Of a stretch of 64,000 bases of DNA, positions 1-64,000 are shown one piece after another. This DNA comes from Dioscorea cayenensis subsp. rotundata (Eukaryota > Streptophyta > Magnoliopsida > Dioscoreales > Dioscoreaceae), in the NCBI RefSeq assembly GCF_009730915.1, contig NC_052484.1, positions 558,001 to 622,000 of the forward strand, read 5' to 3'. The notes under the pieces were generated by a model. It was not told the DNA's origin and did not search any database. It was given only the letters and a program-made list of their open reading frames with translations. The position numbers and the translations under genes were made by a program. Numbering within the stretch: position 1 is the stretch's first letter; each line of letters starts with the position of its first letter.

Positions 1-721
1 GGAAATTCATAATTCAATCTAGCAAGAAAAAAATAAAAGAAGATATTAGTTCAATAATAAGCTAAAGATAACTATAATTAGAAAAGGGAACAAATTATGC
101 ATCGTAATACAATGTCACATTAATTACTATATATATATAATTTTCATATTTTCTTAATTTTGGATTAATTAATTAGTTAAAATGAGATGTAGCAATATAA
201 TTAGGGAAATAAATAATACATAGTTCAATAATAAGCTAAAAGATAAATATAATTAGAAAAAGAACAATTATACATCGTATTAACTTACTACAATCTCACA
301 TTAATAACATTACATAACTTTCAGTTTATTGATACAAAAAAATAAAAAATAAAAAAACTCACATATAAAAATATATATGTGTGTATGTATATATAAATAT
401 ATATATATAACAGGAGTTCCTCTTCAAAATATATTACAGTGATGATCATCATATCACATGAAGGTTGCTTTGAGATTCATAATTTACTATATAATAATTT
501 ACATAAAAGATGAACTATTTTGCAGTTCACTAATCTTAAAGCAACCTCAAATATGATATGTTGGTCCACCTAATATTTTATAATAAATAGTTTCCTGACT
601 ATTGAAAAAAAAAAATACAACTCCCCATAAGAAAAACAAGGAATATATATATATATATATAACAAAAAACAATATAAAAAACATAACATTACTTCCCTAT
701 ACAACAAGAAGAGACTATAAT
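1..721. repeat. AT-rich 3' flank of ssSPT gene 1 with tandem units and a hairpin
   Basis: The block starting near 48 is repeated, diverged, starting near 221 (period about 173). Both units contain the phrases 'tagttcaataataagct' and 'acatcgta' or 'gcatcgta'. The mirror in the right arm (63.3-63.64 kb) shows a further partial unit. A long inverted repeat lies at 450-478/532-560, and (AT)n tracts at about 370-410 and 646-662. No coding potential seen. Confidence 0.6.
450..560. repeat. Inverted repeat / hairpin, MITE-like or small-RNA-like
   Basis: Bases 450-478 and 532-560 pair as a stem of about 29 bases with a few mismatches around a loop of about 53 bases. The stem centres on 'ggttgctt' and its complement. 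The structure also occurs in the right arm near 63,035-63,148. It may be a tiny MITE or a hairpin precursor. I do not recognise the mature sequence. Confidence 0.45.
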
Positions 722-1600
722 TCACAAAGCCCTTGGATCCCAATTGGCATGATTAAGGAGAAGCATAACCCTAGAAAGTAATTAATTAATTAGTTAATTA
801 ATTAATTGGTATCAATTAATGTAACATAATAAACTATATGCATTAATAATACATTAAAAAAAGAGAGCTTACCTGTTGTAGATCTGGTAAACAAATCTTG
901 AGCCATTGTAGAAGATTAACCCAAGCAACACCAACATCAATATATCTACTTAAGTTTAGGAAGTAAGCATATTTAAAATTTTTAATAAATAAAATTTAAA
1001 GGAATAAAAACTTTATAAAAGTCATATTCTTTGTTTATTTAACCATGGAAATACTTTGTATTTTTTATATTGTTATTCCAAAATGTTATAATTGTATGCA
1101 CACTAAAAAAAAAACATATTATTTGTATAACTTTTCCAATAAATTAAACATATTAAGAATACCAAACAACGAGGTGATGTATCTTGAAACTGCAATCAAT
1201 ATTTTTTCAAAGATTATTCTAGAATAGTTTTAAAATAGAATGAACCGAGAAATCATATCTCAAAAAAAAAAAAATCATATATTTTGATAACTTCTGAAAT
1301 TATAATAATTAATCTCCTACGAACTTTTGTGCTTTAATAAAAGACAATCAACAACTACTTATTCTCAAGAAACAATCATTGAAAAATCATATATAACTTC
1401 AATATGTATTACAAATATCATATTTTGTAGTACTAGTAATGAGATGGTTCAAGAGGAACAAAACATTCTACATCTTTATATACAAATCAACAAGAAGACA
1501 AAAGGACAATATTATCTAAACTAGTCCTTTACCCTTAAATAATTAAACTTAAAAACAAGGAGAAAAAACCAAGAAACATACATAATAGATGAAAGAAAAA

Positions 1601-1635
<35 letters not shown>

Positions 1636-1728
1636 AAGGATACTAAAAAGGTAACGTTCCCACCAATCAAGCACATAGAGCCCCAAAGTCACGTTGTAAA
1701 GAAACATCTTTCTGCTCAAATAGTTCAT
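722..1728 (-). CDS. ssSPT: Serine palmitoyltransferase small subunit (ssSPT), paralogue 1
   Basis: Small ER membrane protein that binds the LCB1/LCB2 heterodimer and stimulates serine palmitoyltransferase, the first step of sphingolipid synthesis. Exons on the minus strand: 1728-1644, 945-873, 770-722, giving 68 residues. Exon 1 starts MNYLSRK and contains YNVTLGLYVLDWWERYLF; the split codon completes Asn, and exon 2 gives a hydrophobic segment followed by FYNGSRF. This layout (basic start, YNVT, DWWER, one membrane segment, YNG) matches what I know of plant ssSPTs of about 56 residues. Both introns have GT..AG ends and phases agree. The start is the ATG at 1728; an upstream in-frame GTG is not needed. 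Exon 3 (VMLLLNHANWDPRAL) is supported only by splice phase and a stop. The family call is strong, the C-terminus moderate. Confidence 0.8.
1605..1636. repeat. (AAAT)n microsatellite in ssSPT1 intron 1
   Basis: About eight tandem 'aaat' units just inside the intron, near the 5' splice site. The right arm lacks this expansion at the matching place (about 61,990), so the repeat differs between arms. Confidence 0.7.
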
Positions 1729-1739
1729 CTTCTTCACAA

Positions 1740-2356
1740 GAACTTATTAGCCAATAAACTCTATATCCATATACATATACATGCACATATATATATATAT
1801 GAACTTACTTCATGTTTAATTAATTAATTTTTAATGCCACATGTTAATCTACTATTGGTGGGTAAACTATATTTGAGTCGATATTTCAGAGCCGATGAAA
1901 TATTTGGGTGCATTACTTTTTCAAATATATCAAGAATACGCATCTATTCAATGACTTAAAAACATTAAGTTTATGACTTTATGGTTCAATCCTTTTCTCT
2001 CTAGCTTAAGAACATGCATGCCAACAATGCAATGAGATCCACAATTTATTTTCTTATTAATTATTTGATTCCTAGTTGATGAACATGCATTAATTAATTG
2101 AAGTTTAAAGTCAATTACTGAAGACAAAAATGCATATAGTCATAAATAATTGGCCCTAAAAGTCAAATAAAAGCTGTCATATATGTGTGTATATATATGT
2201 TATTGTTAAGATGTTATTTGATTGCATTTTATATTTAACTACACCATGTTTATATTATTTTGATAATAATTAATTTGAATGTTGTGCTATTATCCAAGTG
2301 CAATTCTCAATGGAGGATTTGATCAATTGCCTTGACTTCTTGTGCACTTCCTCTGA
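1740..2356. other. Upstream region of ssSPT1, no gene
   Basis: AT-rich DNA between the ssSPT1 start and the hAT target site. It has a (TA)n run at about 1788-1800 and several 'taattaatt' stretches. No open coding sequence or RNA gene recognised. It presumably holds the ssSPT1 promoter. Confidence 0.5.
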
Positions 2357-2364
2357 GAAAGACC
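2357..2364. repeat. hAT target-site duplication, outer copy
   Basis: 'gaaagacc' directly before the element terminus 'tagtggtgtcaaa'. The same 8 bases recur at 6879-6886 right after the other terminus. Eight-base duplications are the hAT signature. Confidence 0.85.
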
Positions 2365-2949
2365 CTAGTGGTGTCAAATGGGTCGGCACGCGGCCATGGT
2401 TTTGTGTGCTAGGCTGAGCACGGCCCTACGAATGGAGGAGGTCGGCCCAACACGAGACATGGCCCACTTTTAGCTTGGGCTCGTGCCCGAGCCGGCCCAT
2501 TAATATTTTTTAATATAGAAAATTAAAATAAAAACATATGACAGATAACTAGATAAGATACTTAGATACATATCTAAAAAATCGGATAAGAAAAACCCAC
2601 ATATTCAATTCTTTTCGCAGAATTGGATATCCTGTTGTTCGATTTTCATAGTCATATCACATGAAAATAAATAAACATGAGAATTTTTCTGCAAATTTGT
2701 TTTGAAATATCTTAGAACAAGCTTGAATCTCTGGATATAAATTAATTTCTTTTTTTCCTTAGAATAATAGCTCAATATCTTCATGCATGTGCAAATTTAC
2801 AGCACCCCATATGGACATGACACATTAACACCTGAAAAATCCATCTCATTGAACTCCTTAATAAAATGACAAACCAACCAGGTTGAATCCTATAACTAAA
2901 CACAAAGGTCAAAGAGAGCATATAGATAAGGCAAAAAACCAAAAAACCT

Positions 2950-3930
2950 CAAACTCAGGTTGGTTCAGCAATGCCAAGGGTGCCCACTCTGTCAATTGCA
3001 TCCAAAGCTTTCATCTTATCTATGTCAAAATTTATGACAGGCACCATGGATGATCGCCTTGATACTAAATCCTTTTTCATATCCACTAGACAACTGGTTG
3101 GAGAATGGCTGCTACTCTTACATAATTTCTGGTGCTTGCTTAACCTTGATTTCATGGTGTCGAATTCTTGGCTTTTGCTTATTCCTGGCGTCAGATTTCC
3201 TGAGTGTAACATCCTGTAGAAATCTAAAGGATCAATAACTCAAGATCAAAACCCCAATCTAAAGAATCATCAATCTTTTCTCCAATAGAAACTCCATTAA
3301 ACCTCAAAAATCAATTAATCAATCCACGAGAAAAGATCAAAAAGGAAAGAGAAAGAGGAAAATCATTCTAGTATCCTACAAAAGATCAAATAGAAAAATA
3401 AATACAATTTTAAAAGAAAAATAAAAACCCACATATTCAATCGAAAACAAGAATCATCGCAACCCCAAACAGGTCAAACCAATCAAACAAAAATAGAACC
3501 CCCAAAACAATGAAAAATCACATCAAATGGGATCAAAACAAAGCGAGATATAACAAAAACAAACTCGAGACTCACTAGCGATGAACGGAATCAGGACATC
3601 AATGAAATCATCCAAAAAGCATGACCTTTGGATGACTCACGCAAAGGGCAATCAAGATGGGGGGATCAAGAGGCATCAAGAGCGAGAATGGAGAGTAGAT
3701 AGAGGAAAAGGAATGAGGCTATGCACCTCGAGCGCCATCGCCGTCTGGTGAAGAAGCCCCTTGCCTGCGCACCTTTCGATGATCTCGGGTCGCGGATCCG
3801 GGCGATGACCGACGTCCGATGCCATTGGCGGAAGTCTGAAGATGATGGGTAGAGCCATAGAGGTCAGGCCCCGATGGAAGATGCGGCACCGATAACAACC
3901 CCCAACGAGACTCAACCTAACCCTAATGAG
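2950..3930 (-). pseudogene. Non-transposase gene fragment inside the hAT element
   Basis: Reading from 3930 down, a GC-rich segment encodes a stretch starting MASDVGHRPDPRPEIIER and ending at a possible donor after MALE. Then comes a short exon-like segment near 3590-3650 (KGHAFLDDFIDVLIPFIA in the right-arm copy) with a 'gtgagt' donor, then a possible last exon at about 2955-3212. The pieces keep intron-like AT-rich DNA between them, as expected of a captured genomic gene fragment. I do not recognise the protein. Small indels differ between the two arms, and no full reading frame survives. It could instead be an element-specific accessory gene. Confidence 0.45.
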
Positions 3931-4128
3931 AATGCATTCAAATATTCAATACAAGTAAATAGATATTTTATATTTAAATAAAAGTAATAAATTACAAAAA
4001 TAACAATTAATACTATTTGAATTTTGAAGTAAACCAAAATACTTATCTTTTTTATTTTTAATTTGAACATTTGAAATAATAAAAAAGATTAGTCTTGGAC
4101 TCTTGGCATCTTGCAAGCTTGAGGCTCA

Positions 4129-6212
4129 TCAATCTATTCCTTCTACATCAGTATATATGCTTTCTCCACCATCATCAGGGGTGAATTGTTCTATTTTCCC
4201 ATGCAATCTATCTTCAGCATCTAGCCAATCCTTCAAACATATGCACATTTGCACTATTTGATTATTCATTCGCTTTCCTCCCTATCATCCAATACTCCTT
4301 TTTCCCCGCACTCAAAAACAGAGACTACGATGCTACTCATGAGACGTCGGTGGAGTTAACAGATCACGAGCCATGGCGGCAAGTCATGAGGGATAACTAT
4401 GCGCCTGTTGTTTTCCACCATGCCAAAAATATCAAAACTATCCATTTCTTCCGATGTAAGGAAATTATTAATATTATTATTTAAATAATGATTTATTTCA
4501 TGTAAGTAGAAAAGTACTAGTATTAGAAGAAGAAGAAGCACTACGTGGAAATAATTATATTTACAACATAAGTAGCGGATCTATTTTTGGTGCTGACTGA
4601 GGAACTTTCACTAGATTGAGGCATATTGAAAAGTCCTTCTATCACCATATTTTTCTATAATATTCATTATAGATATCATAAAATAAAAGAACGATAATTT
4701 TTCTTTCAAAAATAGAATGATCAAGGCCCATATTATTATCATAAGAATCAATTATGCAAAAAGCCATCAATTTTTAAAAGCGAGGGTCAACAAAACATAG
4801 CTAAAATAGAAGTGGTTCAATTTTTCCAAAATATTTTTTAAATTTTCCCTCCATGGGAGCAATAATAGGACCAAAATTAGGGTCTTCTCTATATTTTGCA
4901 AAAATCTCACTAATAAAAAATATTTGGTTGACAATAATAGATGAAGTGGAATAATAAACACCGGACAAAATATTAGTTGAAGCATAAAAAATTTCCAAAA
5001 ATTCCTTAATTAAATGGCTAACTTCCCAATCATAATTAGTGACATGATCATCGGGAAATCTCTCATTAACAAACATAGAAATAATATCTCTATCATTATA
5101 AGCACACTCCAACATTTCATAAGTTGAATTCCACCTATGCTCAACATCAATAATATATCTTTTACATTTTCTCCCCCTTTCCGAACAATAAGCTTGAAAA
5201 TCATGTCTTCGGGTTGAACCATTTCGAACATATAAAATAGAATTTCGAACTTTTTTAATATGGGGCTCAATTATTTTTAAACCATCTTTAACACATAAAT
5301 TCAAAACATGACAAGCACAACGCATGAAAAAGCCCTGAAAATAAAGGCATTAAATTCATTTTTTAAAAGATCGACCGCATTGTTATTTCGTGAAGCATTA
5401 TCCAAAGTAATTGAAAATATAGAACTCCGAAATATTATACTCATTAATAGCCCCGAGTTATATAACTTGCATAACACTTTATGCGTATAACGGTGTTCTA
5501 ATTCAAAAACTTAAAATACGCTTTTGCAAAAACCAATTATTATCAATATAGTGACCCAGTAACACAAAAGATAATTCGTTTGAAATCGAGAAGACCAAAT
5601 ATCCGAGTAAGAGAAATTTTAAAAGAACAAGAAGATAATTCAGAAATTAATTTTTGTTTATAATCATCATAAATAATAAGACAATATTTTCTCATAGTAT
5701 TTCTTGAAACCGATTTAAAAATTTGGATTAAAAACCTCGAATAAGCATTTTTATAAAAGCGGGATTTTCGCAAAAATAAAAAGGTTGCTCATTTTTGAGC
5801 AATAAATTTCATGAACTTCGTTTTCTTGCATTTTCATTATTAAAAATAAAAATTTCCCATACTCAAATCGAGTAAAACTAATTTGTGTTTGTGTGGGATT
5901 GTGTGAACTTCCAGGGCATGCTTGTCGAGCATGTCTTTTTAAATGCCCCGGCCCCCAAGTTTGCATAGAAAAAAATCTTTTTACATTTTTTACAAACCAC
6001 TCGAGTGCCTTTTGTTCGGGAAAATCAACAATGTCATAAAATTGCCAAACCCCGGAAGTTCGCTTTCTAGAGCTTCGAGGGTTGTTACTTGATGGGCCAA
6101 TATTTGGTGTCTCAATAACAACATCATCATCCTCCGGAGAATTTAACGGGGTATTTTCATAAAAACCAAACGGAGAATTATCGGAGGGAAAGTTGGGAGA
6201 AGAACCGGCCAT
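4129..6212 (-). pseudogene. hAT transposase (BED zinc finger, RICESLEEPER-like), decayed
   Basis: Starts at ATG 6212 (MAGSSPNFPSDNSPFGF). It has a degraded BED-type zinc finger region (WQFYDIVDF ... GHLKRHA), the central hAT part with RCACHVLNLCVKDGLK and HRWNSTYEML, and a C-terminal dimerisation part with WLVICHDLP-like remnants ending near KDWLDAEDRLHG at about 4130-4230. At least three frame changes split it into fragments at 6212-5751, 5773-5543, 5325-4801 and 4541-4356. The DDE core is not continuous, so the protein cannot be functional as read. It is named from motif order typical of plant zinc-finger-BED hAT transposases. Confidence 0.85.
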
Positions 6213-6878
6213 TATGAAAATTAAAAATTAAGAACAACGGATTACCTCAATTGCTTTAACAAATAATTTACAAAGTTGATTTTTGGTGTCAATTTCTTTT
6301 GAGTGCAATTGAGATACTTGATGATGAACTTGAAACTTGGATTTGCAAACTTGAAGCTTGGGAGTTGCACTTAGAAGCCAAGGAGAGAATTAGATTGAGA
6401 GATGAGAGAGTTTGGTGTGGAAATTTTAGTTTGAATTTAGGGGTATTTATAAATTTTTTTTAAATTTTTTTAAATATTTTTATTCCAAAAATGCCCTCAT
6501 AAACTAGCCGTTTATAGTTGTTGTAAAGGGCAAAATTGTCATTTACACCAAAAAGACTAAAATACCCATAAAACTAGCCGTTAGATAGTTGTTGGGATGG
6601 GTAAAAATGTCTTTCTATCAAAGCAAAAAGAAAAAAATAAATTCAAAGTGTTAATACTCACAAAATAAAAAAATAAAAAAAAATTGAAAAGTGGACCGTT
6701 GAGGGCCGGCCCGCGTGCCTGGGCTGGCACGGACCAGCTGCCAGCCCGAGCTGGGCCGCGTGCCGGGCCGGCCCACGGGCCACGGAACCTTGGCCCGGCC
6801 CAGCCCGGACATAATACTGTAGCATCTGGGCCCAAATCTTGCCGGGCCCGGGCCGGCACGGCCCGTTTGACACCTCTA

Positions 6879-6886
6879 GAAAGACC
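6879..6886. repeat. hAT target-site duplication, inner copy
   Basis: 'gaaagacc', identical to 2357-2364. Confidence 0.85.
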
Positions 6887-7995
6887 TCTTTCTTGTACAC
6901 TTCCTCTGGTGTTGAGAAGATATTTTGTGAAATTGCCGACTCCTATGATTTTATCATTGTTTGTGATCTTGCTTCATTTCTGTGGTTAAGATGGTTTATC
7001 ATTGTTTGTTATCTCGCTTCATTTCCATTGTTAGGATTGTGATCGTATCCCAGTTTTTGTGGTGTTCTTGCATAATTCTTGTATTTTTATGTGCTTGCAC
7101 GTTTTTTTTTTAATTTAATAAAATTTTACTTTATTTATTGTTAATAAAATTGTGATTTATCTACTGTCATCAAAGCGGGAAAAAATTACAGTTCATCAAT
7201 TAACATACTTACTTTTTTGTATTTAGATATTTGGTGTTTTTTTATTTTTTATTTTTTAATTGTTAATAGCAGAAATAAATGGAGTGACATGTTTAATTTT
7301 ATCGAAGAAAATACGGTAATTCCTTATTTCTAATTTCCAATTCAATCTAATAACACAATGCAAAAAATTAATATCGAATTAAATATGTTTTTTATTCATC
7401 ATTTGTCGATAAATTCATGATCACATTGAATCACAATTTCAACACAATGTAGGTTGCACGTTAGATAGAAACCGAGATCAAATTAACTGCAGAAAATGTG
7501 CCGAAAGACTGAATTACAAATCAGAATGAGATTAATTTCAAGCACTTTCGACAGAAAAGTTCAGCTTATAAAGATTTCTCAAGCGAATAACTAAACCGAT
7601 ACCTTTATCGAAATGTATCACTAGAAATCATAACACAACGAATTTCCTCAAAGTTTTCATCCATTCTGAATTTCATCTACATCACATTCTTTAACATAGT
7701 TTTTGTTTTCTCTTCATCCGTTTTGAATATGTCTGATTGTGTCATGCATTGAATACATCTAATTGTATCATGCATAAACCGATGAAATTTAATGTCAGAA
7801 AGATTTACATGATTCGGAAATTCGCATAAATAACAAGAGATGAAATCAAGCAAATGTCTACTCTTCTCAACATTACTGAAGAAATTCACACATTCAAAGG
7901 TTTTTTTTACTGTACATTAATTCTGTAAAGTTAAACAAGCATAACCGATATGACCTCATCGACAGCCATCTTTACTATCGCTAATGCTTGATCGT
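6887..7995. other. Intergenic DNA between hAT element and ssSPT2
   Basis: AT-rich with no gene that I can support. The stretch is the 3' flank of ssSPT2 and is conserved in the right arm at about 55,623-56,728. Short open stretches on both strands show no recognisable product. Confidence 0.5.
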
Positions 7996-9148
7996 TTAAT
8001 AGATTAGGTTGGTACAAATCCGGCAGTGCTGAACTTTTTGCCAACCATGAACTCTGCAGAAAAATTGCTGAAAAGGAATTGGAGAAACATAAAAAATTAA
8101 ATCACAGTTGCTGCAATTGAGCAGAAGCAGAAGGCTAAAGAGCAATTCATTTCATTGTCATCAATCTAACAGAATAAAAACTATGCATAATCTGAGCTTA
8201 AAATAACACATAGAAAAACAAAATTAATAAAGTCTAGACTGAGAGTAAAATTCACACAGTACTTAAATCCCAAATGCTGCAATTGAGCAAGACCAGAACA
8301 TTACTGAGAGATCGATACATTCTTATCAATCCAACACAATACAATGCCAATCCTATCATCATAAATAGTACACAGAAAAACAAAATTGACAATGACTTTA
8401 ATGCCTCAATTGAGGCAGAAGCAGAATTCTAAAGAGAAATTCATCCTTATCAATCTAACACAATAAACTATATATGAATCTGAGCTAAGATTTACATTAA
8501 ATAATTTTTAATCATTCACTTTGAAGTTAAACTTCAATGCAATAAAATCTAAATGAAAAACAATAAACCAATGCATCTGATCTTAAATAATAAACAGAAA
8601 AACAAAATTGATACTTAAACAACACCACAATTGAGCAGAAGCAGAGCACTGAAGAGAAAACCATCCTTAACAATCTACAACAATATACTATGAACCTGAG
8701 CTTTAAAAAAAATATATATATAAACAACAGAAAAATATCAACTCTTTGTGAAGATATATAAACACAAACCTGTTGTAGATCTGAGTAACAAATCTGCAGC
8801 CATTGTAGCAGATAAACCAAAGCAAAACCAATATCAATATATCTACAAGATTTAAGGAATCTAAAAAGATAATTTTACTATTACTATGATTATTCACTTC
8901 AATGGGAAAAAAAGAAAATGTCCCAAAAATCCAATCTTTCCACTGGAACCCAGTTCATCAACATCAGAACAACTCAAATCACCAAAATTTCATCTTTAAA
9001 AGTGAAAGAAAAGAACAACAAGAAAAGGAAAACAGCCAAAGGGGATGTGAAGGAAAAGGATACTGAAAAGATAGCGCTCCCACCAATCCAGCATGTAAAG
9101 CCCCATGGTGACATTGTAGAGATAGATCTTCTTGCTCAAAGGATTCAT
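7996..9148 (-). CDS. ssSPT: Serine palmitoyltransferase small subunit (ssSPT), paralogue 2
   Basis: Second ssSPT gene, same strand as paralogue 1, with the hAT between them. Exons on the minus strand: 9148-9064 and 8842-8770, plus a third at 8053-7996, giving 71 residues. Exon 1 encodes MNPLSKKIYLYNVTMGLYMLD and then WWERYLF; exon 2 supplies the membrane segment (ILILVLLWF) and YNGCRFVTQIYN. Exon positions and phases equal those of paralogue 1. The third exon is uncertain: the acceptor at 8054 gives VHGWQKVQHCRICTNLIY then stop, while an acceptor two bases further on opens a longer frame (SSWLAKSSALPDLYQ ...) ending near 7930. Intron 2 is long and made of degenerate repeats. A palindromic G-box lies about 165 bases upstream of the start. 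Confidence 0.8.
8100..8740. repeat. Degenerate repeat array in ssSPT2 intron 2
   Basis: At least four diverged units, at about 8110, 8278, 8405 and 8625, share the order 'caattgagcagaagcag', 'gagaaattcatcctta', 'caatctaacacaataaact', 'tgaatctgagct' and 'cagaaaaacaaaattg'. Spacing is roughly 125-220 bases. The array is kept in the right arm (about 54,920-55,500). Confidence 0.65.
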
Positions 9149-9312
9149 CTTTCTCCTCCTTTCAAGGATTAAACCAGAAAAAGACTCAAACTTTGGGGAT
9201 CTCCGAAGGATCTGAAGAGGTGAGAGGCCGGACGAAGGGTCAACAATGGTGATGATCAGAGAACATCAGAGATAAGAGGAACCAACGAAATCCAAACCCA
9301 AAGGTCCTTTAT

Positions 9313-9322
9313 GACACGTGTC
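9313..9322. promoter_or_regulatory. Palindromic G-box upstream of ssSPT2
   Basis: 'gacacgtgtc' is a perfect palindrome with the CACGTG core bound by bZIP and bHLH factors. An ACGT motif ('caacgtggc' on the other strand) lies about 25 bases further upstream. It sits about 165 bases before the ssSPT2 ATG and is unchanged in the right arm. Confidence 0.45.
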
Positions 9323-9442
9323 AGTATATTATTAGTTAAGATCATGCCACGTTGGTGAGTCATATTAATGGGTTCGGTTTTTAAGTGGGAAAAATATACC
9401 GGTCACTCTCTCAAGTCCCATATCAAACAACTTATTCATTTT

Positions 9443-11023
9443 AGACCCTGTTTGGACGCAGTAAATTTTTCTCGTAGGAATTTTTATTTCATAGTGATTC
9501 GAAACGACTCTTCTGGAATTAACTACAGAAAAAAATTCCTACTGAATCAAGATGTTTGATGCGTGAATTTTCCATATGAATTTTTAATTTTGAAAATGAA
9601 ACTAGCCGTTAGAGTTTTGATAAAAAAAACTAGCCGTTAACAATTTTTCTCTATTTAAAGCCAACAATCTTGCTATTTGTATACTTATCTCTCCCTAGCT
9701 TAAATTTTTACCTCTCAAAGTTTTTTGTTTCAATATGGATCTAGATCAATGGAGAAAGATTAATGAAGATGATGACGAATTCATGTTTCACCATTTTCAC
9801 CTAGTTTATTTCCTACAAGTTCAAACAACTAGGCCTTGTCATACATCAATATTAACGAGTGATGCATATGTTCAAGAAATTCTTCGAGGTCATGAGACAC
9901 GTTGTAGCTTGAATTTCAGTATGGAGCCTCAGTATATTTCAATCATTTCGGTAATTGTTTACAGAAAGATCTCTTCTTTGAAGCTCAAAAAGGGTTACTA
10001 ATCGAGGAACAACTAGCAATGTTTATGTACATCTCTGCGCATAACGCTAGTAATCGTGACGTGCAAAGAACGTTTTTCAACATTCAATGAAACGGTTAGC
10101 CGTTATTTTAAAAAGTAGCTGATTATTACTACTCTTGCATACTACATATATAAATTGCCACCAACAACTATCATCGCCAGGTTATCCATAATAGTAGACA
10201 TTTTTTTTCTTCCATATTTCAAGGTTAGAAATCTTTATATTGTATTTTTATTTATTATTTACGTTTTTTTTTTATATATTCTCTTAACAATATTATGGGT
10301 TTTTATTTTAAGATTAGGTATATGCTCATTGATGGAGCACATATGTTCCAATCATCATTTCTTTTGGACTTGCAAGATCTTTACTGTAAATAGAAAACAA
10401 ACATTATCCCAAAAATGTCGTGGTCATGCGATTTTAACCTACGTTTTGTATATGTTCGATTTGGTTGGGAAGGTTACGCTCCGATCTTTGCAAAGTACTT
10501 TGATGATTCAATCGACTAGGCTGTCCATGCCCCAATAAATATTACCTAGTGGATCGCGGGATATGCAAATACTCCAAAGTTTATTGCTCCATATCGGGTG
10601 TGCGTTATCACTTACAAGAGCAAGGGACGGGCGGGGATGTGAGACCAAGTAATTACAAAGAACTATTTAATTTGCGACACGCTCGTTTGAGAAATCATGT
10701 TGAGCGTATTATTGGTGTCTTGAAAATCGGGGTCTCCTAGCTTAAAGTTGCAACCTTTCATCGATAGATTCCCCAAAGCTGATATAGTAGTTGCCGCATG
10801 TGTCTTGCATAATTTCATACGTATACACAATAGCGCGGATGAAATCGAAGAAATAAATCGATGAATGGAGTTGATGAAGTTACAGTCCCAAATGGAGATG
10901 ATACATATCGAAAATGATGTCGACGTCTTGAACTCGATCGTGTACGAGGTGCTCATAAAAAGAGATGAAATAGTAATGCAAATATGGAATGATTACTGTA
11001 ACTATCGTAGATATATAATTTAA
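9443..11023 (+). mobile_element. PIF/Harbinger element remnant, left arm
   Basis: The 5' end 'gaccctgtttggacg' after 'tta' resembles a PIF/Harbinger/Tourist terminus with its TTA target site. The matching 3' terminus was not found, so the right limit given is just the transposase stop. The element is shared by both arms. Confidence 0.5.
9735..11023 (+). pseudogene. PIF/Harbinger nuclease (DDE_4, ALP1-like), decayed
   Basis: Starts MDLDQWRKINEDDDEFM, the usual opening of plant Harbinger nucleases. The middle holds IDGAH-like DNA near 10,330 and the end of the DDE nuclease: PKFIAPYRGVRYHL-like, RPSNYKELFNLRHA, LRNHVERIIGVLK, then a CVLHNFIRIH-like segment at about 10,800 and a stop at 11,021. 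Several frame changes (near 9,950-10,330, 10,540 and 10,735) prevent a single product. The right-arm copy keeps a clearer middle with YVPITISFG and YYLVDAGYANTPKF. Domesticated ALP1 proteins come from this family, but this copy is degraded. Confidence 0.85.
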
Positions 11024-13271: not shown

Positions 13272-13365
13272 GCTTCGATCCTCGTTGATATCTAAGCGCC
13301 GGCTTTCTTCTTCCTATCTTCTTCTTCTTCTCGTGATTCGATGCGTTGTTGTGGTTTTGGAGCTC

Positions 13366-52592: not shown

Positions 52593-53868
52593 TTAAATTA
52601 TATATCTACGATAATTCACGATGAATCATTCCATATTTGCATTACTATTTCATCTCTTTGTGAGCACTGTCAATACGATCGGAGTTCAGATGCGTTGACA
52701 TCATTTTTGATATGTATCATCTCCATTTGGGACTCAGAACTTCATCAACTCCATTCATCGATTTCTTCGATTTCATCCGGGTGCTATACTGTGTATACGT
52801 ATGAAATTATGCAAGACACATGCGAGCAACTACTTATATCGGTTTGGGAATCTATCGGATGAAAGGTTGCAACTTTAAGCATAGGAAATCGCATTTTCAA
52901 GACACCAATAATACGTTCAACATGATTTCTCAATGAAGCATGTCGCAAATTAAATAGTTCTTTGTAATTACTTGGTCTACATCCCGCCTGGTCCTTGCTT
53001 GTGTAAGTGATAACGCACACCCCGATATGGAGCAATAAACTTTGGAGTATTTGCATATCCTGCATCCACTAGGTAATATTTATTGGGGGGGACATGGAAG
53101 CCTTGGTCGATTGAATCTGTGAAGTACTCTAGCATCGTAGCGTAACCTTCCCAACCATCTCGAACATATACAAAACGTAGGTTAAAATCGCATCGACCAC
53201 TGACATTTTGGGATAATGTTTGTTTTTCTATTTCACGTAAAGATCTTGCAAGTCCAAAAGAAATAGTGATTGGAACATATGCTCCATCAATAGCACTCAA
53301 TACAATCTTAAAATAAAAACCCATAATATTGTTAAGAGAATATATAAGCGTAAATAATAAATAAAAAGAGCGATTATAAAGATTTCTAACCTTGAAATAT
53401 GGATGTCTATTATTATGGATAACTCACGATGTAGTTGTTGGTGGCAATTCTATATATGTAGTCGCAAGAGTAGTAATAGCTTCAAGCACTTTTTAAAATA
53501 ACTTACTTTAACCGCTTCACTGAATGTTGAAAACGTTCTTGCACGTCACGATTACTAGCGTTGTGCGCAAGAGTGTACATAAACATTGCTAGTTGTTCCT
53601 CGATCTGTAACCCTTTTTGAGCTTCAAAGAAGAGATCTTTTCGTTAAAGCAATTACCAAATGATTGAAATATACGAGGGCTCCATACGAAATTCACGCTA
53701 CAACGTGGTCTCATGACCTTGAAGAATTTCTTGAACATATGCATCACCTGTTAATATTGATGTATGACAAGGCCTAGTTGTTGAACTTGTAGGAAATAAA
53801 CTAGTAAAATAGGTGAACATGAATTAGCCATCATCTTCATTAATCTTTCTCCATTGATCTAGATCCAT
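52593..53868 (-). pseudogene. PIF/Harbinger nuclease (DDE_4), right-arm copy
   Basis: Mirror of 9735-11023. The middle is better kept here: FKIVLSAIDGAYVPITISFG, RDGWEGYATMLEYFTDS, YYLVDAGYANTPKFIAPYRG and VRYHLHKQGPGG, then RPSNYKELFNLRHASLRNHVE and VLKMRFPMLKVATFHPI. The nuclease Asp in IDGA and in LVDAGY are visible. Frame changes near the start (about 53,640-53,830), at about 52,985 and in the last 150 bases still break it. The left and right copies are broken at partly different places. Confidence 0.87.
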
Positions 53869-54289
53869 ATTGAAAACAAAAACTTTGAGAGGTAAAAATT
53901 TAAGCTAGGGAGAGATAAGTATACAAATAGCAAGATTGTTGGCTTTTAAATAGAGAAAAAAATTGTTAACGGCTAGTTTTTTATCAAAAACTCTAACAGC
54001 TAGTTTCATTTTCAAAATTAAAAATTCATATGGAAAAAATTCCTCAAGCAGCATCCAAATCATCGATTCAGAGGGAATTTTTCTTGTAGTTAATTCCAAA
54101 GGAGTCATTTCTGAATCCTATGAAATAAAATTCCTACAGAAAAAATTTACTATGCATCCAAACAGGGTCTAAATGAATAAGTTGTTTGATATGGGACTTG
54201 AGAGAGTGACCGGTATATTTTTCCCACTTAAAAACCGAACCCATTAATATGACTCACCAACGTGGCATGATCTTAACTAATAATATACT

Positions 54290-54299
54290 GACACGTGTC
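54290..54299. promoter_or_regulatory. Palindromic G-box, right arm
   Basis: 'gacacgtgtc', mirror of 9313-9322, about 165 bases before the right ssSPT2 start. Confidence 0.45.
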
Positions 54300-54462
54300 A
54301 TAAAGGACCTTTGGGTTTGGATTTCGTTGGTTCCTCTTATCTCTGATGTTCTCTGATCATCACCATTGTTGACCCTTCGTCCGGCCTCTCACCTCTTCAG
54401 ATCCTTCGAGATCCCCAAAGTTTGAGTCTTTTTCTGGTTTAATCCTTGAAAGGAGGAGAAAG

Positions 54463-55622
54463 ATGAATCCTTTGAGCAAGAAGATCTATCTCTACAATGT
54501 CACCATGGGGCTTTTACATGCTGGATTGGTGGGAGCGCTATCTTTTCAGTATCCTTTTCCTTCCACATCCCCCTTTGGCTGTTTTTCCTTTTTCTTGTTG
54601 TTCTTTTCTTTCACTTTTTAAAGATGAAATTTTTGGTGATTTGAGTTGTTCTGATGTTGATGAACTGGGTTCCAGTGGAAAGATTGGATTTTTGGGACAT
54701 TTTCTTTTTTTCCCATTGAAGTGAATAATCATAGTAATAGTAAAATTATCTTTTTAGATTCCTTAAATCTTGTAGATATATTGATATTGGTTTTGCTTTG
54801 GTTTATCTGCTACAATGGCTGCAGATTTGTTACTCAGATCTACAACAGGTTTGTGTTTATATATCTTCACAAAGAGTTGATATTTTTCTGTTGTTTATAT
54901 ATATATATAAAGCTCAGGTTCATAGTATATTGTTGTAGATTGTTAGGATGGTTTTCTCTTCAGTGCTCTGCTTCTGCTCAATTGTGGTGTTGTTTAAGTA
55001 TCAATTTTTGTTTTTTTCTGTTTATTATTTAAGATCAGATGCATTGGTTTATTGTTTTTCATTTAGATTTTTATTGCATTGAAGTTTTAACTTCAAAGTG
55101 AATGATTAAAAATTATTTAATGTAAATCTTAGCTCAGATTCATATATAGTTTATTGTGTTAGATTGATAAGGATGAATTTCTCTTTAGAATTCTGCTTCT
55201 GCCTCAATTGAGGCATTAAAGTCATTGTCAATTTTGTTTTTCTGTGTACTATTTATGATGATAGGATTGGCATTGTATTGTGTTGGATTGATAAGAATGT
55301 ATCGATCTCTCAGTAATGTTCTGGTCTTGCTCAATTGCAGCATTTGGGATTTAAGTACTGTGTGAATTTTTACTCTCAGTCTAGACTTTATTAATTTTGT
55401 TTTTCTATGTGTTATTTTAAGCTCAGATTATGCATAGTTTTTATTCTGTTAGATTGATGACAATGAAATGAATTGCTCTTTAGCCTTCTGCTTCTGCTCA
55501 ATTGCAGCAACTGTGATTTAATTTTTTATGTTTCTCCAATTCCTTTTCAGCAATTTTTCTGCAGAGTTCATGGTTGGCAAAAAGTTCAGCACTGCCGGAT
55601 TTGTACCAACCTAATCTATTAA
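54463..55622 (+). pseudogene. ssSPT: ssSPT paralogue 2, right copy, one-base frameshift
   Basis: Exons 54463-54548, 54776-54848 and 55565-55622. Exon 1 is 86 instead of 85 bases because 'ggggcttttacatg' has one T more than the left arm. After MNPLSKKIYLYNVTMGL the frame is lost before DWWER. Exon 2 and exon 3 are otherwise unchanged. The difference is a homopolymer length, so a sequencing error is as likely as a true mutation. Confidence 0.8.
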
Positions 55623-56728
55623 ACGATCAAGCATTAGCGATAGTAAAGATGGCTGTCGATGAGGTCATATCGGTTATGCTTGTTTAACTTTACAGAATTA
55701 ATGTACAGTACCTTTGAATGTGTGAATTTCTTCAGTAATGTTGAGAAGAGTAGACATTTGCTTGATTTCATCTCTTTGTTATTTATGCGAATTTCCGAAT
55801 CATGTAAATCTTTCTGACATTAAATTTCATCGGTTTTTATGCATGATACAATTAGATGTATTCAATGCATGACACAATCAGACATATTCAAAACGGATGA
55901 AGAGAAAACAAAAACTATGTTAAAGAATGTGATGTAGATGAAATTCAGAATGGATGAAAACTTTGAGGAAATTCGTTGTGTTATGATTTCTAGTGATACA
56001 TTTCGATAAAGGTATCGGTTTAGTTATTCGCTTGAGAAATCTTTATAAGCTGAACTTTTCTGTCGAAAGTGCTTGAAATTAATCTCATTCTGATTTGTAA
56101 TTCAGTCTTTCGGCACATTTTCTGCAGTTAATTTGATCTCGGTTTCTATCTAACGTGCAACCTACATTGTGTTGAAATTGTGATTCAATGTGATCATGAA
56201 TTTATCGACAAATGATGAATAAAAAACATATTTAATTCGATATTAATTTTTTGCATTGTGTTATTAGATTGAATTGGAAATTAGAAATAAGGAATTACCG
56301 TATTTTTCTTCGATAAAAATTAAACATGTCACTCCATTTATTTCTGCTATTAACAATTAAAAATAAAAATAAAAACACCAAATATCTAAATACAAAAAGT
56401 AAAGTATGTTAATTGATGAACTGTAATTTTTCCCCGCTTTGATGACAGTAGATAAATCACAATTTTATTAACAATAAATAAAAGTAAAATTTTATTAAAT
56501 TAAAAAAAAAACGTGCAAGCACATAAAAATACAAGAATTATGCAAGAACACCACAAAACTGGGATACGATCACAATCCTAACAATGGAAATGAAGCGAGA
56601 TAACAAACAATGATAAACCATCTTAACCACAGAAATGAAGCAAGATCACAAACAATGATAAAAATCATAGGAGTCGGCAATTTCACAAAAATATCTTCTC
56701 AACACCAGGAGGAAGTGTACAAGAAAGA
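55623..56728. other. Intergenic DNA, right arm
   Basis: Mirror of 6887-7995. No gene supported. Confidence 0.5.
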
Positions 56729-57385
56729 GGTCTTTTCTAGAGGGTGTCAAACGGGCTGTGCCGGCCCGGGCCCGGCAAGATTTGGGCCCAGATGCTACAG
56801 TATTATGTCCGGGCTGGGCCGGGCCAAGGGTTCTGTGGCCCGTGGGCCGGCCCGGCACGCGGCCCAGCTGGGCTGGCAGTTGGGCCGTGCCAGCCCAGGC
56901 ACGCGGGCCGGCCCGCAACGGTCCACTTCTTATTTTTTATTTTTGTGAGTATTAACACTTTGAATTTATCTTTTTGCTTTGATAGAAAGACATTTTTACC
57001 CATCCCAACAACTATCTAACGGCTAGTTTTATGGGTATTTTTAGTCTTTTTGTGTAAATGACAATTTTGCCCTTTACAACAACTATAAACGGGCTAGTTT
57101 ATGAGGGCATTTTTGAATAAAAATATTTAAAAATTTAAAAATTTATAAATACCCCTAAATTCAAACTAAAAATTTCCACACCAAACTCTCTCTCATCTCT
57201 CAATCTAATTCTCTCCTTGGCTTCTAAGTGCAACTCCCAAGCTTCAAGTTTGCAAATCCAAGTTTCAAGTTCATCATCAAGCATCTCAATTGCACTCAAA
57301 AGAAATTGACACCAAAAATCAACTTTGTAAATTATTTGTTAAAGCAATTGAGGTAATCCGTTGTTCTTAATTTTTAATTTTCATA

Positions 57386-59462
57386 ATGGCCGGTTCTTCT
57401 CCCAACTTTCCCTCCGATAATTCTCCGTTTGGTTTTTATGAAAAATACTCCCTGTTAAATTCTCCGGAGGATGATGATGTTGTTATTGAGACACCAAATA
57501 TTGGCCCTATCAAGTAACAACCCTCGAGCTCTAGAAAAACGAACTTCCGGGGTTTGGCAATTTTATGACATTGTTGATTTTCCGAACAAAGGCACTCGAG
57601 TGGTTTGTAAAAAATGTAAAAAAGATTTTTCTTGCCAAACTTCGGGGGGACGGGGCATTTAAAAAGACATGCCGACAAGCATGCCGCGAAGCCACACAAT
57701 CCCACACAAACACAAATTAGTTTTACCGATTTGAGTATGGGAAATTTTATTTTTAATAATGAAAATGCAAGAAACGAAGTTGCGAAATTTATTGCTCAAA
57801 ATGAGCAACCTTTTTATTTTGCCGAAAATCCCGCTTTTATAAAAATGCTTATTCGAGGTTTTTAATCCAAATTTTTAAATCGGTTTCAAGAAATACTATG
57901 AGAAAATATTGTCTTATTATTTATGATGATTATAAACAAAAATTAATTTCCGAATTATCTTCTTGTTCTTTTAAAATTTCTCTTACTTCGGATATTTGGT
58001 CTTCTCAATTTCAAAGCTGAATTATCTTTGTAGTTACCGGTCACTATATTGATAATAATTGGTTTTCAAAAGTCGTATTTTAAGTTTTTGAATTAGAGCA
58101 GTTATACACGTAAGTGTTATTTGCAAGTTATATAACTCGGGCTATTAATGAGTATAATATTTCGAGTTCTATATTTTTCAATTACTTTGGATAATGCTTG
58201 ACCAAAATAACAATCGCGAGTCGATCTTTTTAAAAATGAATTTAATGCCTTTATTTTCCGGGGCTTTTTCATGTGCGTTGTGCTTGTCATGTTTTGAATT
58301 TATGTGTTAAAGATGGTTTAAAAATAATTGAGCCCCATATTAAAAAAGTTCGAAATTCTATTTTATATGTTCGAAAATGGTTCAACCCAAGACATGATTT
58401 TCAAGCTTATTGTTCGGAAAGGGAGAAAATGTAAAAAGATATATTATTGATGTTGAGCATAGGTGGAATTCAACTTATGAAATGTTGGAGTGTGCTTATA
58501 ATGATAGAGATATTATTTCTATGTTTGTTAATGAGAGATTTCCGATGATCATGTCACTAATTATGATTGGGAAGTTAGCCACTTAATTAAGGAATTTTTG
58601 GAAATTTTTTATGCTTCAACTAATATTTTGTCCGGTGTTTATTATTCCACTTCATCTATTATTGTCAACCAAATATTTTTTATTAGTGAGATTTTTGCAA
58701 AATATAGAGAAGACCCTAATTTTGGTCCTATTATTGCTCCCATGGAGGGAAAATTTAAAAAATATTTTGGAAAAATTGAACCACTTCCTATTTTAGCTAT
58801 GTTTGTTGACCCCCGTTTTAAAATTGATGGCTTTTTGCATAATTGATTCTTATGATAATAATATGGGCCTTGATCATTCTATTTTGAAAGAAAATTATCG
58901 TTCTTTATTTTATGATATCTATAATGAATATTATAGAAAATATGGTGATAGAAGGACTTTCAATATGCCTCAATCTAGTGAAAGTTCCTCGTCAAGCACC
59001 AAAAATAGATCCGCCACTTATGTTGTAAATATAATTAAAAAAAAATTTCCACGTGTGCTTCTTCTTCTTCTAATACTAGTACTTCTTCTACTTACATGAA
59101 ATAAATCATTATTTAAATAATAATATTAATAATTTCCTTACATCGGAAGAAATGGATAGTTTTGATATTTTGGCATGGTGGAAACAACAGGCGCATAGTT
59201 ATCTCAGTCTTGCCGCCATGGCTCGTGATCTCGTTAACTCCATCGACGTCTCACAGTGAGCATCGAGTCTTGTTTTAGTGCAGGAAAAGGAGTATTGGAT
59301 GATAGGAGGAGCAGAATGAATAATCAAATAGTGCAAATGTGCATATGTTTGAAGGATTGGCTAGATCTCTGAAGATAGATGTGCATGGGAAAAATAGAAA
59401 CAATTCACCCCACGATGATGGTGGAGAAAGCATATATCATCGATGTAGAAGGAATAGATTGA
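57386..59462 (+). pseudogene. hAT transposase, right-arm copy, decayed
   Basis: Mirror of 4129-6212. The BED finger is better kept here: GVWQFYDIVDF, VVCKKCKKDF and a C-terminal histidine-bearing HLKRHADKHA. The dimerisation end has DILAWW-like DNA at about 59,168 and DDRRSRMNNQIVQMCICLKD from about 59,298. Split by many frame changes (near 57,475, 57,655, 57,860, 58,260, 58,430, 58,845 and 59,100). Confidence 0.85.
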
Positions 59463-59659
59463 TGAGCCTCAAGCTTGCAAGATGCCAAGAGTCCAAGACT
59501 AATCTTTTTATTATTTCAAATGTTCAAATTAAAAAAATAAAAAAAGATAAAGTATTTTTGGTTTACTTCAAAAATTCAAATAGTATTAATTGTTATTTTT
59601 TTGTAATTTATTACTTTTATTTAAATATAAAATATCTATTTACTTGTATTGAATATTTG

Positions 59660-60660
59660 AATGCATTCTCATTAGGGTTAGGTTGGGCCCGTTGGGGGTT
59701 GTTATCGGTGCCGCATCTTCCATCGGGGCCTGACCTCTATGGCTCTACCCATCATCTTCGGACTTCACGCCAATGGCATCGGACGCTCAGTCATCGCCCG
59801 GATCCGCTGACCGGAGATCATCGAGCGGTGGGCGCAGGGCAGGCTTCTTCACCGGACGGTGGCGTTGGCAAGTGCATAGCCTCATTCCTTTTCCTCTATC
59901 TACTCTCCATTCTCGTTCTTGATGCCTCTTGATCCCCCATCTTGATTGCCCTTTGCAGGAGTCATCCAAAGGTCATGCTTTTTTGGATGATTTCATTGAT
60001 GTCCTGATTCCGTTCATCGCTAGTGAGTCTCGAGTTTGTTTTGTTATATCTCGCTTTGTTTTGATCCCATTTGATGTGATTTTCATTGTTTTTGTTCTAT
60101 TTTTTTGTTTGATTGGTTTGACCTGTTTGGGGGTTGCGATGATTCTTGTTTTCGATTGAATATGTGGGTTTTTATTTTCTTTAAATTGTATTTATTTTTT
60201 CTTTTTTTTTATTTGATCTTTGTAGGATACTAGAATGATTTTCCTCTTTCTCTTTCCTTTTGATCTTTTCTGTGGATTGATTAATTGATTTTTGAGGTTT
60301 AATGGAGTTTCTATTGGAGAAAGAAAAAAAAAATTGATGATTCTTTAGATTGGGGTTTTGATCTTGAGTTATTGATCCTTTAGATTTCTACAGGATGTTA
60401 CACTCAGGAAATCGACCCTGAGGAATAAGCAAAAAGCCAAGAATTCGACACCATGAAATCAAGGTTAAGCAAGCACCGTAAATTATGTAAGAGTAGCGAG
60501 CCCATTCTCCAACCAGCTTGTCTAGTGGATATGAAAAAGGATTTAGTATCAAGTGATCATCCATGGTGCCTGTCATAAATTTTGACATAGATAAGATGAA
60601 AGCTTTGGATGCAATTGACAGAGTGGGCACCCTTGGCATTGCTGAACCAACCTGAGTTTG
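59660..60660 (+). pseudogene. Non-transposase gene fragment inside the hAT, right copy
   Basis: Mirror of 2950-3930. Here 'ccctttgcag' gives a clean acceptor before ESSKGHAFLDDFIDVLIPFI, followed by a 'gtgagt' donor and AT-rich intron-like DNA up to an acceptor at about 60,392. The left arm has 'gcgtga' at the first acceptor, so the right arm may show the older state. Product unrecognised. Confidence 0.45.
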
Positions 60661-61260
60661 AGGTTTTTTGGTTTTTTGCCTTATCTATATGCTCTCTTTG
60701 ACCTTTGTGTTTAGTTATAGGATTCAACCCTGGTTGGTTTGTCATTTTTATTAAGGGAGTTCAATGAGATGGATTTTTTTCAGGTGTTAATGTGTCATGT
60801 CCATATGGGTGTCATGTAAATTTGCACATGCATGAAGATATTGAGCTATTATTCTAAGGAAAAAAAGAAATTAATTTATATCCAGAGATTCAAGCTTGTT
60901 CTAAGATATTTCAAAACAAATTTGCAGAAAAATTCTCATGTTTATTTATTTTCATGTGATATGACTATGAAAATCAGAAAACAACAGGATATCCAATTCT
61001 GCGAAAAGAATTCGAATATGTGGGTTTTTCTTATCTGATTTTTTTTAGATATGTATCTAAGTATCTTATCTAGTTATCTGTCATATGTTTTTATTTTAAT
61101 TTTCTATATTAAAAAATATTAATGGGCCGGCTCGGCACGAGCCCGGCTAAAGTGGGCCATGTCTCGTGTTGGGCCGACCCTCCTCCATTCGTGGGCCGTG
61201 CTGGCCTAGCACAACAAAACCATGGGCCGTGCCGGCCCATTTGACACCACTAGGTCTTTC

Positions 61261-61899
61261 TCAGAGGAAGTGCACAAGAAGTCAAGGCAATTGATCAAAT
61301 CCTCCATTGAGAATTGCACTTGGATAATAGCACAACATTCAAATTAATTATTATCAAAATAATATAAACATGGTGTAGTTAAATATAAAATGCAATCAAA
61401 TAACATCTTAACAATAACATATATATACACACATATATGACAGCTTTTATTTGACTTTAGGCCAATTATTTATGACTATATGCATTTTTTGTCTTCAGTA
61501 ATTGACTTTAAACTTCAATTAATTAATGCATGTTCATCAACTAGGAATCAAATAATTAATAAGAAAATAAATTGTGGATCTCATTGCATTGTTGGCATGC
61601 ATGTTCTTAAGCTAGAGAGAAAAGGATTGAACCATAAAGTCATAAACTTAATGTTTTAAGTCATTGAATTTTTTTTTTTTTTAAAAAGATGCGTATTCTT
61701 GATATATTTGAAAAGTAATGCACCCAAATATTTCATCGGCTCGAAATATCGACTCAAATATGTTACCCACCAATAGTAGATTAACATGTGGCATTAAAAA
61801 TTAATTAATTAAACATGAAGTAAGTTCATATATATATATATGTGCATGTATATGTATATGGATATAGAGTTTATTGGCTAATAAGTTCTTGTGAAGAAG
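61261..61899. other. Upstream region of right ssSPT1, no gene
   Basis: Mirror of 1740-2356. AT-rich, no gene. Confidence 0.5.
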
Positions 61900-62873
61900 A
61901 TGAACTATTTGAGCAGAAAGATGTTTCTTTACAACGTGACTTTGGGGATCTATGTGCTTGATTGGTGGGAACGTTACCTTTTTAGTATCCTTTTATTTAT
62001 TTTTCTTTCATCTATTATGCATGTTTCTTGGTTTTTGTCTCCTTGTTTTTAAGTTTAATTATTTAAAGGTAAAGGACTAGTTTTGATAATATTGTTCTTT
62101 TGTCTTCTTGTTGATTTGTATATAAAGATGTAGAATGTTTTGTTCCTCTTGAACCATCTCATTACTAGTACTACAAAATATGATATTTGTAATACATATT
62201 GAAGTTATATATGATTTTTCAATGATTGTTTCTTGAGAATAAGTAGTTGTTGATTGTCTTTTATTAAAGCACAAAAGTTCGTAGGAGATTAATTATTATA
62301 ATTTCAGAAGTTATCAAAATATATGATTTTTTTTTTTTTGAGATATGATTTCTCGGTTCATTCTATTTTAAAACTATTCTAGAATAATCTTTGAAAAAAT
62401 ATTGATTGCAGTTTCAAGATACATCACCTCGTTGTTTGGTATTCTTAATATGTTTAATTTATTGGAAAAGTTATACAAATAATATGTAGTGTGCATACAA
62501 TTATAACATTTTGGAATAACAATATAAAAATACAAAAAGTATTTCCATGGTTAAATAAACAAAGAATATGACTTTTATAAAGTTTTTTTATTCCTTTTAA
62601 ATTTTTATTTATTAAAAATTTTTAAATATGCTTACTTCCTAAACTTAAGTAGATATATTGATGTTGGTGTTGCTTGGGTTAATCTTCTACAATGGCTCAA
62701 GATTTGTTTTACCAGATCTACAACAGGTAAGCTCTCTCTAATGTATTATTAATGCATATAGTTTATTATGTTACATTAATTGATACCAATTAATTAATTA
62801 ACTAATTAATTAATTACTTTCTAGGGTTATGCTTCTCCTTAATCATGCCAATTGGGATCCAAGGGCTTTGTGA
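61900..62873 (+). pseudogene. ssSPT: ssSPT paralogue 1, right copy, one-base frameshift
   Basis: Exons 61900-61984, 62653-62726 and 62825-62873. Exon 2 is 74 instead of 73 bases: 'tttgttttaccag' against 'tttgtttaccag' on the left. The membrane segment and YNGSRFV are kept, but the last residues change and exon 3 is read out of frame. Exon 1 differs by one residue (GIYVLD against GLYVLD). Confidence 0.8.
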
Positions 62874-64000
62874 ATTATAGTCTCTTCTTGTTGTATAGGG
62901 AAGTAATGTTATGTTTTTTATATTGTTTTTTGTTATATATATATATATATATTCCTTGTTTTCTTATGGGGAGTTGTATTTTTTTTTTTCAATAGTCAGG
63001 AAACTATTTATTATAAAATATTAGGTGGACCAACATATCATATTTGAGGTTGCTTTAAGATTAGTGAACTGCAAAAATAGTTCATCTTTTATGTAAATTA
63101 TTATATAGTAAATTATGAATCTCAAAGCAACCTTCATGTGATATGATGATCATCACTGTAATATATTTTGAAGAGGAACTCCTGTTATATATATATATTT
63201 ATATATACATACACACATATATATTTTTATATGTGAGTTTTTTTATTTTTTATTTTTTTGTATCAATAAACTGAAAGTTATGTAATGTTATTAATGTGAG
63301 ATTGTAGTAAGTTAATACGATGTATAATTGTTCTTTTTTCTAATTATATTTATCTTTAGCTTATTATTGAACTATTTTTTGTATTATTTATTTCCTAATT
63401 ATATTGCTACATTCATTTTAACTAATTAATTAATCCAAAATTAAGAAAATATGAAAATTATATATATATAGTAATTAATGTGACATTGTATTACGATGCA
63501 TAATTTGTTCCCTTTTCTAATTATAGTTATCTTTAGCTTATTATTGAACTAATATCTTCTTTTATTTTTTTCTTGCTAGATTGAATTATGAATTTCCAAT
63601 CAAATATATTGCTTCATTTATTTCAACTAATTAATTAATCTAATATATATATATATATATATATTGTAGTTTTATATTAGTTCACGCAATCAAATGTGAA
63701 GTCCGTGTGGTTCAAGTTTGTCTTGAAAATCATTTTGTGTACTTCTCAGATTACATATTGATAGATACATTTGTGGTTCCAATTTCACGAAGTTATCTTT
63801 TTTGGTTTTAAAACAAAAAAAAAAATACTTAATTTCATGTACTGGGCACATAACTACAAAACTATAAACAATTTAAACCTAAACTCTAAATCCATAAAAA
63901 AACTATATACATAGTAATATTAATAGTGGTAAATAGATGCAAAACCATGAATTTGCTCGGTTTTGAAACCAAGCAAATTATAAGTATGAATTTCACCCAA
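62874..64000. other. 3' flank of right ssSPT1, tandem units and window end
   Basis: Mirror of 1-721 up to 63,597, including the hairpin at about 63,035-63,148 and the about 175-base AT-rich units. 63,598-64,000 has no partner inside the window. No gene seen. Confidence 0.55.

Follow-up and report, generated by a model that had tools for sequence, protein, structure and literature searches.

A long inverted repeat in the Dioscorea cayenensis subsp. rotundata assembly probably represents two haplotigs of one locus

Layout of the locus

The DNA considered here is a 64,000-nucleotide stretch of Dioscorea cayenensis subsp. rotundata (hereafter the window), which corresponds to C14:558001-622000 (C14 being NC_052484.1) in an assembly of 584,211,761 bases and 2,249 sequences (GCF_009730915.1). 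A long inverted repeat occupies both sides of the window, with a SYT-like gene and an ssSPT gene in each arm and additional genes and transposons in the spacer (Table 1). A preliminary description of this DNA had offered two explanations for the arrangement, namely a true segmental inverted duplication or haplotigs placed in opposite orientations around a gap.

Sequence beyond the window was examined at C14:458001-752000 and C14:282001-296000. Each of the six gaps seen in these regions is exactly 1,000 N long, with five in the first (starting at 470966, 529522, 592481, 649671, and 694425) and one in the second (287358). Given this uniform length, neither the order nor the orientation of the contigs is supported by sequence across the gaps. 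The gap at 592481 is the one that the preliminary description had recognized in the spacer, and it parts two contigs, A and B, each of which holds one arm. Contig Y precedes this pair and contigs C and D follow it.

Between the arms, the ssSPT region (window 8850-9300) shows eight single-base insertions or deletions (indels), all of them run-length changes, and no substitutions. One such change, in the first exon, alters a run by one base and breaks the reading frame of the right ssSPT copy, and no Pfam match was found in the two open reading frames (ORFs) of this copy that were tested. Several one-base length differences are also present in the last exons of the right SYT-like copy.

The arms also differ by a transposon insertion. 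A truncated long interspersed nuclear element (LINE) in the left arm ends in an A run, and a direct repeat of 12 bases (TTCAGACAAAAA) stands on either side of it, at 17451 and 18612. The same 12 bases occur singly in the right arm (46263, minus strand), which represents the empty site. Thus, the LINE was inserted after the two copies separated. Its presence or absence could readily serve as a marker by which alleles are told from duplicates. Two other stretches are common to both arms and absent from a third, partial copy elsewhere on C14. The right-arm counterpart of the first stretch yields a hAT-like RNase-H match slightly below the Pfam cut-off, and the second stretch is probably another transposon. 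Rfam and tRNA scans found nothing.

Table 1. Coordinates of the contigs, repeat arms, genes, and insertions (window positions unless C14 is given)
Feature	Location	Strand	Remarks
Contig Y	C14:471966-529521
Contig A	C14:530522-592480		holds left arm
Contig B	C14:593481-649670		holds right arm
Contig C	C14:650671-694424
Contig D	C14:695425 to past 752000
Left arm	1-19060	+	inner 19.1 kb of a 46.5-kb homologous stretch in contig A
Right arm	45838-63597	-	in-window pairing part, contig B; homology continues to contig end
Stretch common to both arms	2353-7036		absent from third copy at C14:283 kb
ssSPT gene (SPT_ssu-like), left copy	8500-9265	-	PF11779 match in ORF 8999-9265
Stretch common to both arms	9441-11119		absent from third copy at C14:283 kb
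Left SYT-like copy (C2 domain), 3' part	15900-17400	+
Truncated LINE, left arm only	17463-18611	+	zf-RVT domain, ~1.15 kb
Inner part, contig A only	19061-34480	+
RING/VWA gene	ORF 25756-27594		inner part of A
Ssl1/TFIIH p44 gene	exons about 29431-30463		inner part of A
Zinc alcohol dehydrogenase gene	about 32331-33749		inner part of A
Scaffold gap, 1,000 N	34481-35480		separates A from B
Innermost 2 kb of contig B	35481-37482
Copia-type long terminal repeat (LTR) retrotransposon, contig B only	37483-43309	+	Pol_BBD, gag_pre-integrs, RVT_2; LTRs 37483-38427 and 42346-43309
High-copy repeat element TE2, contig B	43313-45843
Right SYT-like copy (C2 domain), 3' part	46340-47700	-
ssSPT gene, right copy	54373-55029	+

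Extent of the inverted repeat

When the window is compared with itself by BLASTN, positions 1-17462 pair with 63597-46263 and positions 18612-19060 pair with 46274-45838, both in minus orientation. A global alignment of the in-window arms contains 274 mismatches and 369 gap events over 17,428 aligned bases. By both methods the inverted repeat first noticed in the preliminary description (1-19060 against 63597-45838) is present in the sequence, and the homology that had been seen to leave the left window edge continues to C14:530522. The arm length of 17.8 kb proposed earlier has to be revised, since the full arms in the parent chromosome measure 46,539 bases in A and 45,833 bases in B and extend outward to C14:530522 and C14:649670, respectively.

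In A the homology begins with the first base, and in B with the last (base 56,190), with BLAST matches spanning 45.4 of the 62.0 kb of A and 45.5 of the 56.2 kb of B. Both outer ends of the arms are contig ends that lie flush with 1,000-N gaps, and no flanking sequence is attached to them, in contrast to the unique flank joined to the arms by which a true duplication can be recognized. The inner ends of the homology, at window positions 19060 and 45838, fall within contigs A and B rather than at gaps.

Some pieces of the arms were searched against the whole assembly, namely window 11000-17460, C14:538001-546000, and the first 800 bases of A, which together make up 15.3 of the 46.5 kb. Each of these pieces has two near-identical full-length copies, one in A and one in B.

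A second inverted contig pair

A second adjacent inverted pair of contigs follows directly after the first. Positions 13-37929 of C match positions 44514-9912 of D inversely, and short matches extend this homology to C14:689573. A scaffold gap again lies between the two contigs (C14:694425-695424). Divergence was compared at clean sites, defined as sites with eight identical bases on either side. The C/D statistics derive from five BLAST blocks, in which clean substitution rates are 0.55-1.69%, compared to 0.57 and 1.22% in the two A/B blocks used for this comparison.

A tandem family of small genes, for which no Pfam match was found in the three members tested, also marks the direction of these contigs. 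By tblastn, both matches in A and all eight in C are on the minus strand. Both matches in B and 12 of the 15 in D are on the plus strand, and the three remaining matches in D sit beyond the part that resembles C. The family members of C and D are collinear. From these strands and the C/D homology, the scaffold reads A(+) B(-) C(+) D(-). The observed order of contigs is A A' C C', whereas A C C' A' would be expected from a single real palindrome.

This order bears on the possibility that the repeat is a real inverted segmental duplication, in which about 46 kb would have been copied inversely beside the original and gene conversion would have kept parts of the copies identical. If real, this arrangement of contigs demands two independent, neighboring inverted duplications (A/B and C/D) with similar divergence and with a gap in each spacer, and both outer contig ends would have to fall at the same homologous base. 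A real duplication is unlikely on this evidence, together with that on gene order given below. An elaborated version, in which recent neighboring inverted duplications at the tandem gene cluster were broken and homogenized through TE2 and gene conversion and the convergent SYT and ssSPT genes are able to form double-stranded RNA, is quite improbable. Alternatively, two haplotypes placed by map position, in contigs of ~50 kb whose orientation was not determined, would yield the order A A' C C' directly.

Divergence between the arms

Over the whole arms, an alignment of 44,556 bases includes 669 mismatches (1.5%) and 761 gaps, of which 648 are only 1-2 bases long. At clean sites there are 209 substitutions among 30,661 positions (0.68%), accompanied by 229 clean single-base indels that are mostly located in runs. 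The raw identity of about 95% was considered as a measure of age and rejected, given the large share of very short gaps and the fact that clean indels are about as numerous as clean substitutions. Most of the small indels between A and B look like sequencing errors.

Substitutions are distributed in patches (heterogeneity chi-square 139.1 with 45 degrees of freedom, compared to a maximum of 91.8 in 2,000 simulations). Stretches that lack single-nucleotide polymorphisms reach 2.7 kb, and three blocks of the A/B comparison contain no clean substitutions in 2,577 sites. Differences of this allelic level are compatible with a false heterotype duplication, although they are not diagnostic of one.

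Orientation of contig A

A paralogous region on C2 provides a hint regarding the orientation of A. In this region an ARF gene (23388312-23391114, plus strand) is located to the left of a RING/VWA gene (23430795-23432480, minus strand), and the two are 39.7 kb apart. On C14, the ARF gene lies in contig Y and the RING/VWA gene in the inner part of A. If A is flipped beside Y, the gene order and relative orientation match those on C2, with a nominal distance of 41.9 kb obtained by arithmetic. With A as placed, the distance is 88.3 kb and the strand is opposite to the C2 arrangement. The C2 region, as judged from these two genes, thus fits A being flipped, and this gene order is another point against a real duplication. 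When the assembly was searched with C14:519500-527500, from the right part of contig Y, no match appeared in the C2 region.

Contig Y has some features of its own. A direct repeat spans the gap at 470966 (C14:462052-470948 and 478032-486758, 83% raw BLAST identity), and its left copy stops 17 bases short of the end of its contig. The clean substitution rate between contig Y and the preceding contig in this repeat is 1.25%. Beside an ORF for a cyclic-nucleotide-binding protein, C14:519649-520982 is 97% identical to C17:1687090-1688426 over 1.3 kb. No near-identical second copy exists for a 4.9-kb piece of this contig.

Inner junctions of the arms

The spacer itself holds the scaffold gap, and the inner junction of B coincides with the end of a high-copy element. 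Homology between A and B begins in contig B at the sharp end of TE2 (...GGCAATTTCCACT). Among 1,474 first-look candidates, 38 further places with TE2 were scored. Of 39 further matches to the TE2 end, the stop positions of 38 lie at most 17 bases apart, and all 10 of the TE2 copies that were fetched are alike up to ...TTTCCACT and divergent beyond it. Within TE2 there are tandem repeats with a 20-base unit as well as a direct repeat, which is about 0.7 kb long. A terminal inverted repeat of TE2 was sought in the window, where the 238 bases preceding the junction have no match other than themselves. On the other side of the gap, a search of the assembly with 8.1 kb from the inner part of A (window 25700-33800) found no near-identical second copy. 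The innermost 2 kb of B contain a short high-copy repeat at about 36040-36320.

Evaluation of the haplotig interpretation

The structure is very probably a false heterotype duplication, in which A and B are two haplotigs of one locus and A is misoriented. This reading builds on the contig layout, the flush outer ends, and the second adjacent inverted pair, and it is accompanied by the low and patchy divergence, the run-length indels, and the transposon end at the inner junction of B. Of the two explanations offered in the preliminary description, opposite-orientation haplotigs around the gap are favored because each contig holds one arm, the outer ends are flush, and the second pair repeats the pattern. 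Nothing was found that requires a true segmental inverted duplication.

A plausible course of events can be outlined. The plant would be heterozygous at this locus, with contigs A and B as its two haplotypes (alleles). They might have been assembled apart due to differing insertions, with the LINE in A and both the copia element and TE2 in B, which would lie inside and beside a variable tandem gene cluster. Scaffolding would then have set both haplotigs side by side in the pseudochromosome with arbitrary 1,000-N gaps. If contig A was placed in the wrong orientation during this process, parallel alleles would mimic a palindrome with a spacer.

Similar artifacts are described in the literature. 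The signs of false heterotype duplication given by Ko et al. (2022; PMC9516828) include a gap between the copies, haploid read depth, discordant or spanning read pairs, one-copy (heterozygous) k-mers, and differences at the allelic level. In both A/B and C/D, a gap is present between the members of the pair on the same scaffold. As in the cases from that study, near-identical copies are located on one scaffold with a gap between them, and divergent haplotypes would appear as paralogs that cause false gene gain, here with SYT and ssSPT counted twice. The presumed haplotigs at the present locus are head to head, whereas the main text of Ko et al. does not contain the word "inverted." The locus also resembles the false segmental duplications from haplotype contigs described by Kelley and Salzberg (2010; PMC2864568), which involve adjacent duplicate contigs with some non-duplicated flank. 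Detection in the latter work uses mate pairs, whereas only the assembly was used here, and neither "inverted" nor "orientation" occurs in its main text. A third paper, PMC7992393, deals with transposons and purging and was not drawn upon. To the extent that these two sources describe them, the structure matches the assembly-only signs of false heterotype duplication and of adjacent haplotype contigs. True inverted segmental duplications or palindromes share with this locus the long inverse arms, the spacer, and the junctions within contigs (although here that of B is the end of a high-copy element and the spacer holds the gap), but they differ from it with regard to the second adjacent pair, the gap between the arms, the flush outer ends, and the C2 gene order.

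Several observations weigh against the haplotig interpretation, and many of them also count in favor of a real duplication. Both inner junctions (19060 and 45838-45843) are within contigs rather than at gaps. Beyond TE2 and the copia element, a return of contig B to the sequence of A was sought and not found. The innermost 2 kb of B have no match in the inner part of A (19061-34480) and no near-identical copy elsewhere in the assembly, and an inner end of B that is unique and not allelic to A also favors a real duplication. Because B does not rejoin the sequence of A, either the haplotypes differ beyond a simple insertion or B is chimeric. Three causes could explain the inner ends that fail to rejoin: insertions nested within haplotype B, a join at TE2 that made the contig chimeric, or the border of a real duplication.

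A chimeric contig deserves separate consideration. In such a case, B (or A) would be joined incorrectly through the repeat at TE2, such that the arm is allelic and the innermost 10 kb of B come from elsewhere. The arms would still be false duplicates, and the inner junction would be a further assembly error. Homology does stop exactly at the end of the high-copy TE2, the third copy likewise stops at a TE2 end, no clear target-site duplication was apparent by eye around TE2 or around TE2 plus the copia element, and the far side matches nothing in A. However, the copia element and TE2 each seem to be complete, as would also be expected from ordinary nested insertion in one of the haplotypes, and a chimera is considered highly unlikely.

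The flush outer ends must also be viewed with caution. The unit in which they lie is found again in C and D (76-95% identity), and an assembler could cut both arms at one repeat-boundary base even if the duplication were real. For this reason, the flush ends were rejected as stand-alone proof. Similarly, the patchy identity of the arms, where identical blocks alternate with diverged ones, is also expected from gene conversion between real duplicates. The C2 comparison is not entirely uniform, as a PAL match on C2 (23244498), to the left of ARF, fits neither orientation of A, and a region on C1 is ambiguous in this respect.

Other partial copies of the arms on C14 present another difficulty. 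One of them (C14:283082-287333) has a TE2 end at one border and a scaffold gap at the other. Apart from the two stretches that it lacks, it is collinear with window 12161-1880, and it differs from A at 43 of 2,016 clean sites and from B at 36 of 1,869 (about 2%), whereas A and B are identical at all 2,577 clean sites compared there. A three-way count covered 3,080 sites; like the clean-site comparison, it omitted C14:286001-286747, which is poorly aligned, as well as the two missing stretches. Small gaps were assigned to A in 9 cases, to B in 24, and to the third copy in 7, although in one of the three blocks A has 7 and B has none. In addition, the end of C (C14:689560-694424) resembles the start of A (530797-537065) in direct orientation, with 20 clean substitutions in 1,832 sites (~1%). 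When A, B, and C are compared here, the end of C is the odd one out, with 31 private clean sites compared to 4 and 5. These third partial copies indicate that real local duplication does occur on C14.

Finally, scans with two gene families, Cpn60/TCP1 (93 matches) and proteasome (17 matches), revealed no other opposite-strand pair within 200 kb. Adjacent inverted haplotigs are therefore not common in this assembly, as far as the two families indicate, and the lack of such pairs elsewhere is again in favor of a real duplication. In the same scans, second copies of CCT-family exons from C4:374347-378465 and C5:26352263-26352514 were noted at C562:23464-27670 and C412:6032-6283, respectively. Sequences C562 and C412 are probably unpurged haplotigs, a point in favor of the haplotig interpretation, and haplotigs of this kind seem to exist in the assembly, mostly unplaced.

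Implications

If the duplication were real, the plant chromosome would carry a long inverted repeat with expressed genes and a spacer. Transcripts from the two arms could then pair, which would make the locus a possible source of gene-silencing RNA, such as the siRNAs against ssSPT and SYT proposed in the preliminary description. If the repeat is an artifact, as seems far more probable, the structure would tell little about the plant itself, and its significance would concern how the assembly is read. At least one contig would probably be reversed, the genes for SYT and ssSPT, two PAL-type genes, and part of the tandem gene family would each be counted twice, and alleles would have been taken for paralogs.

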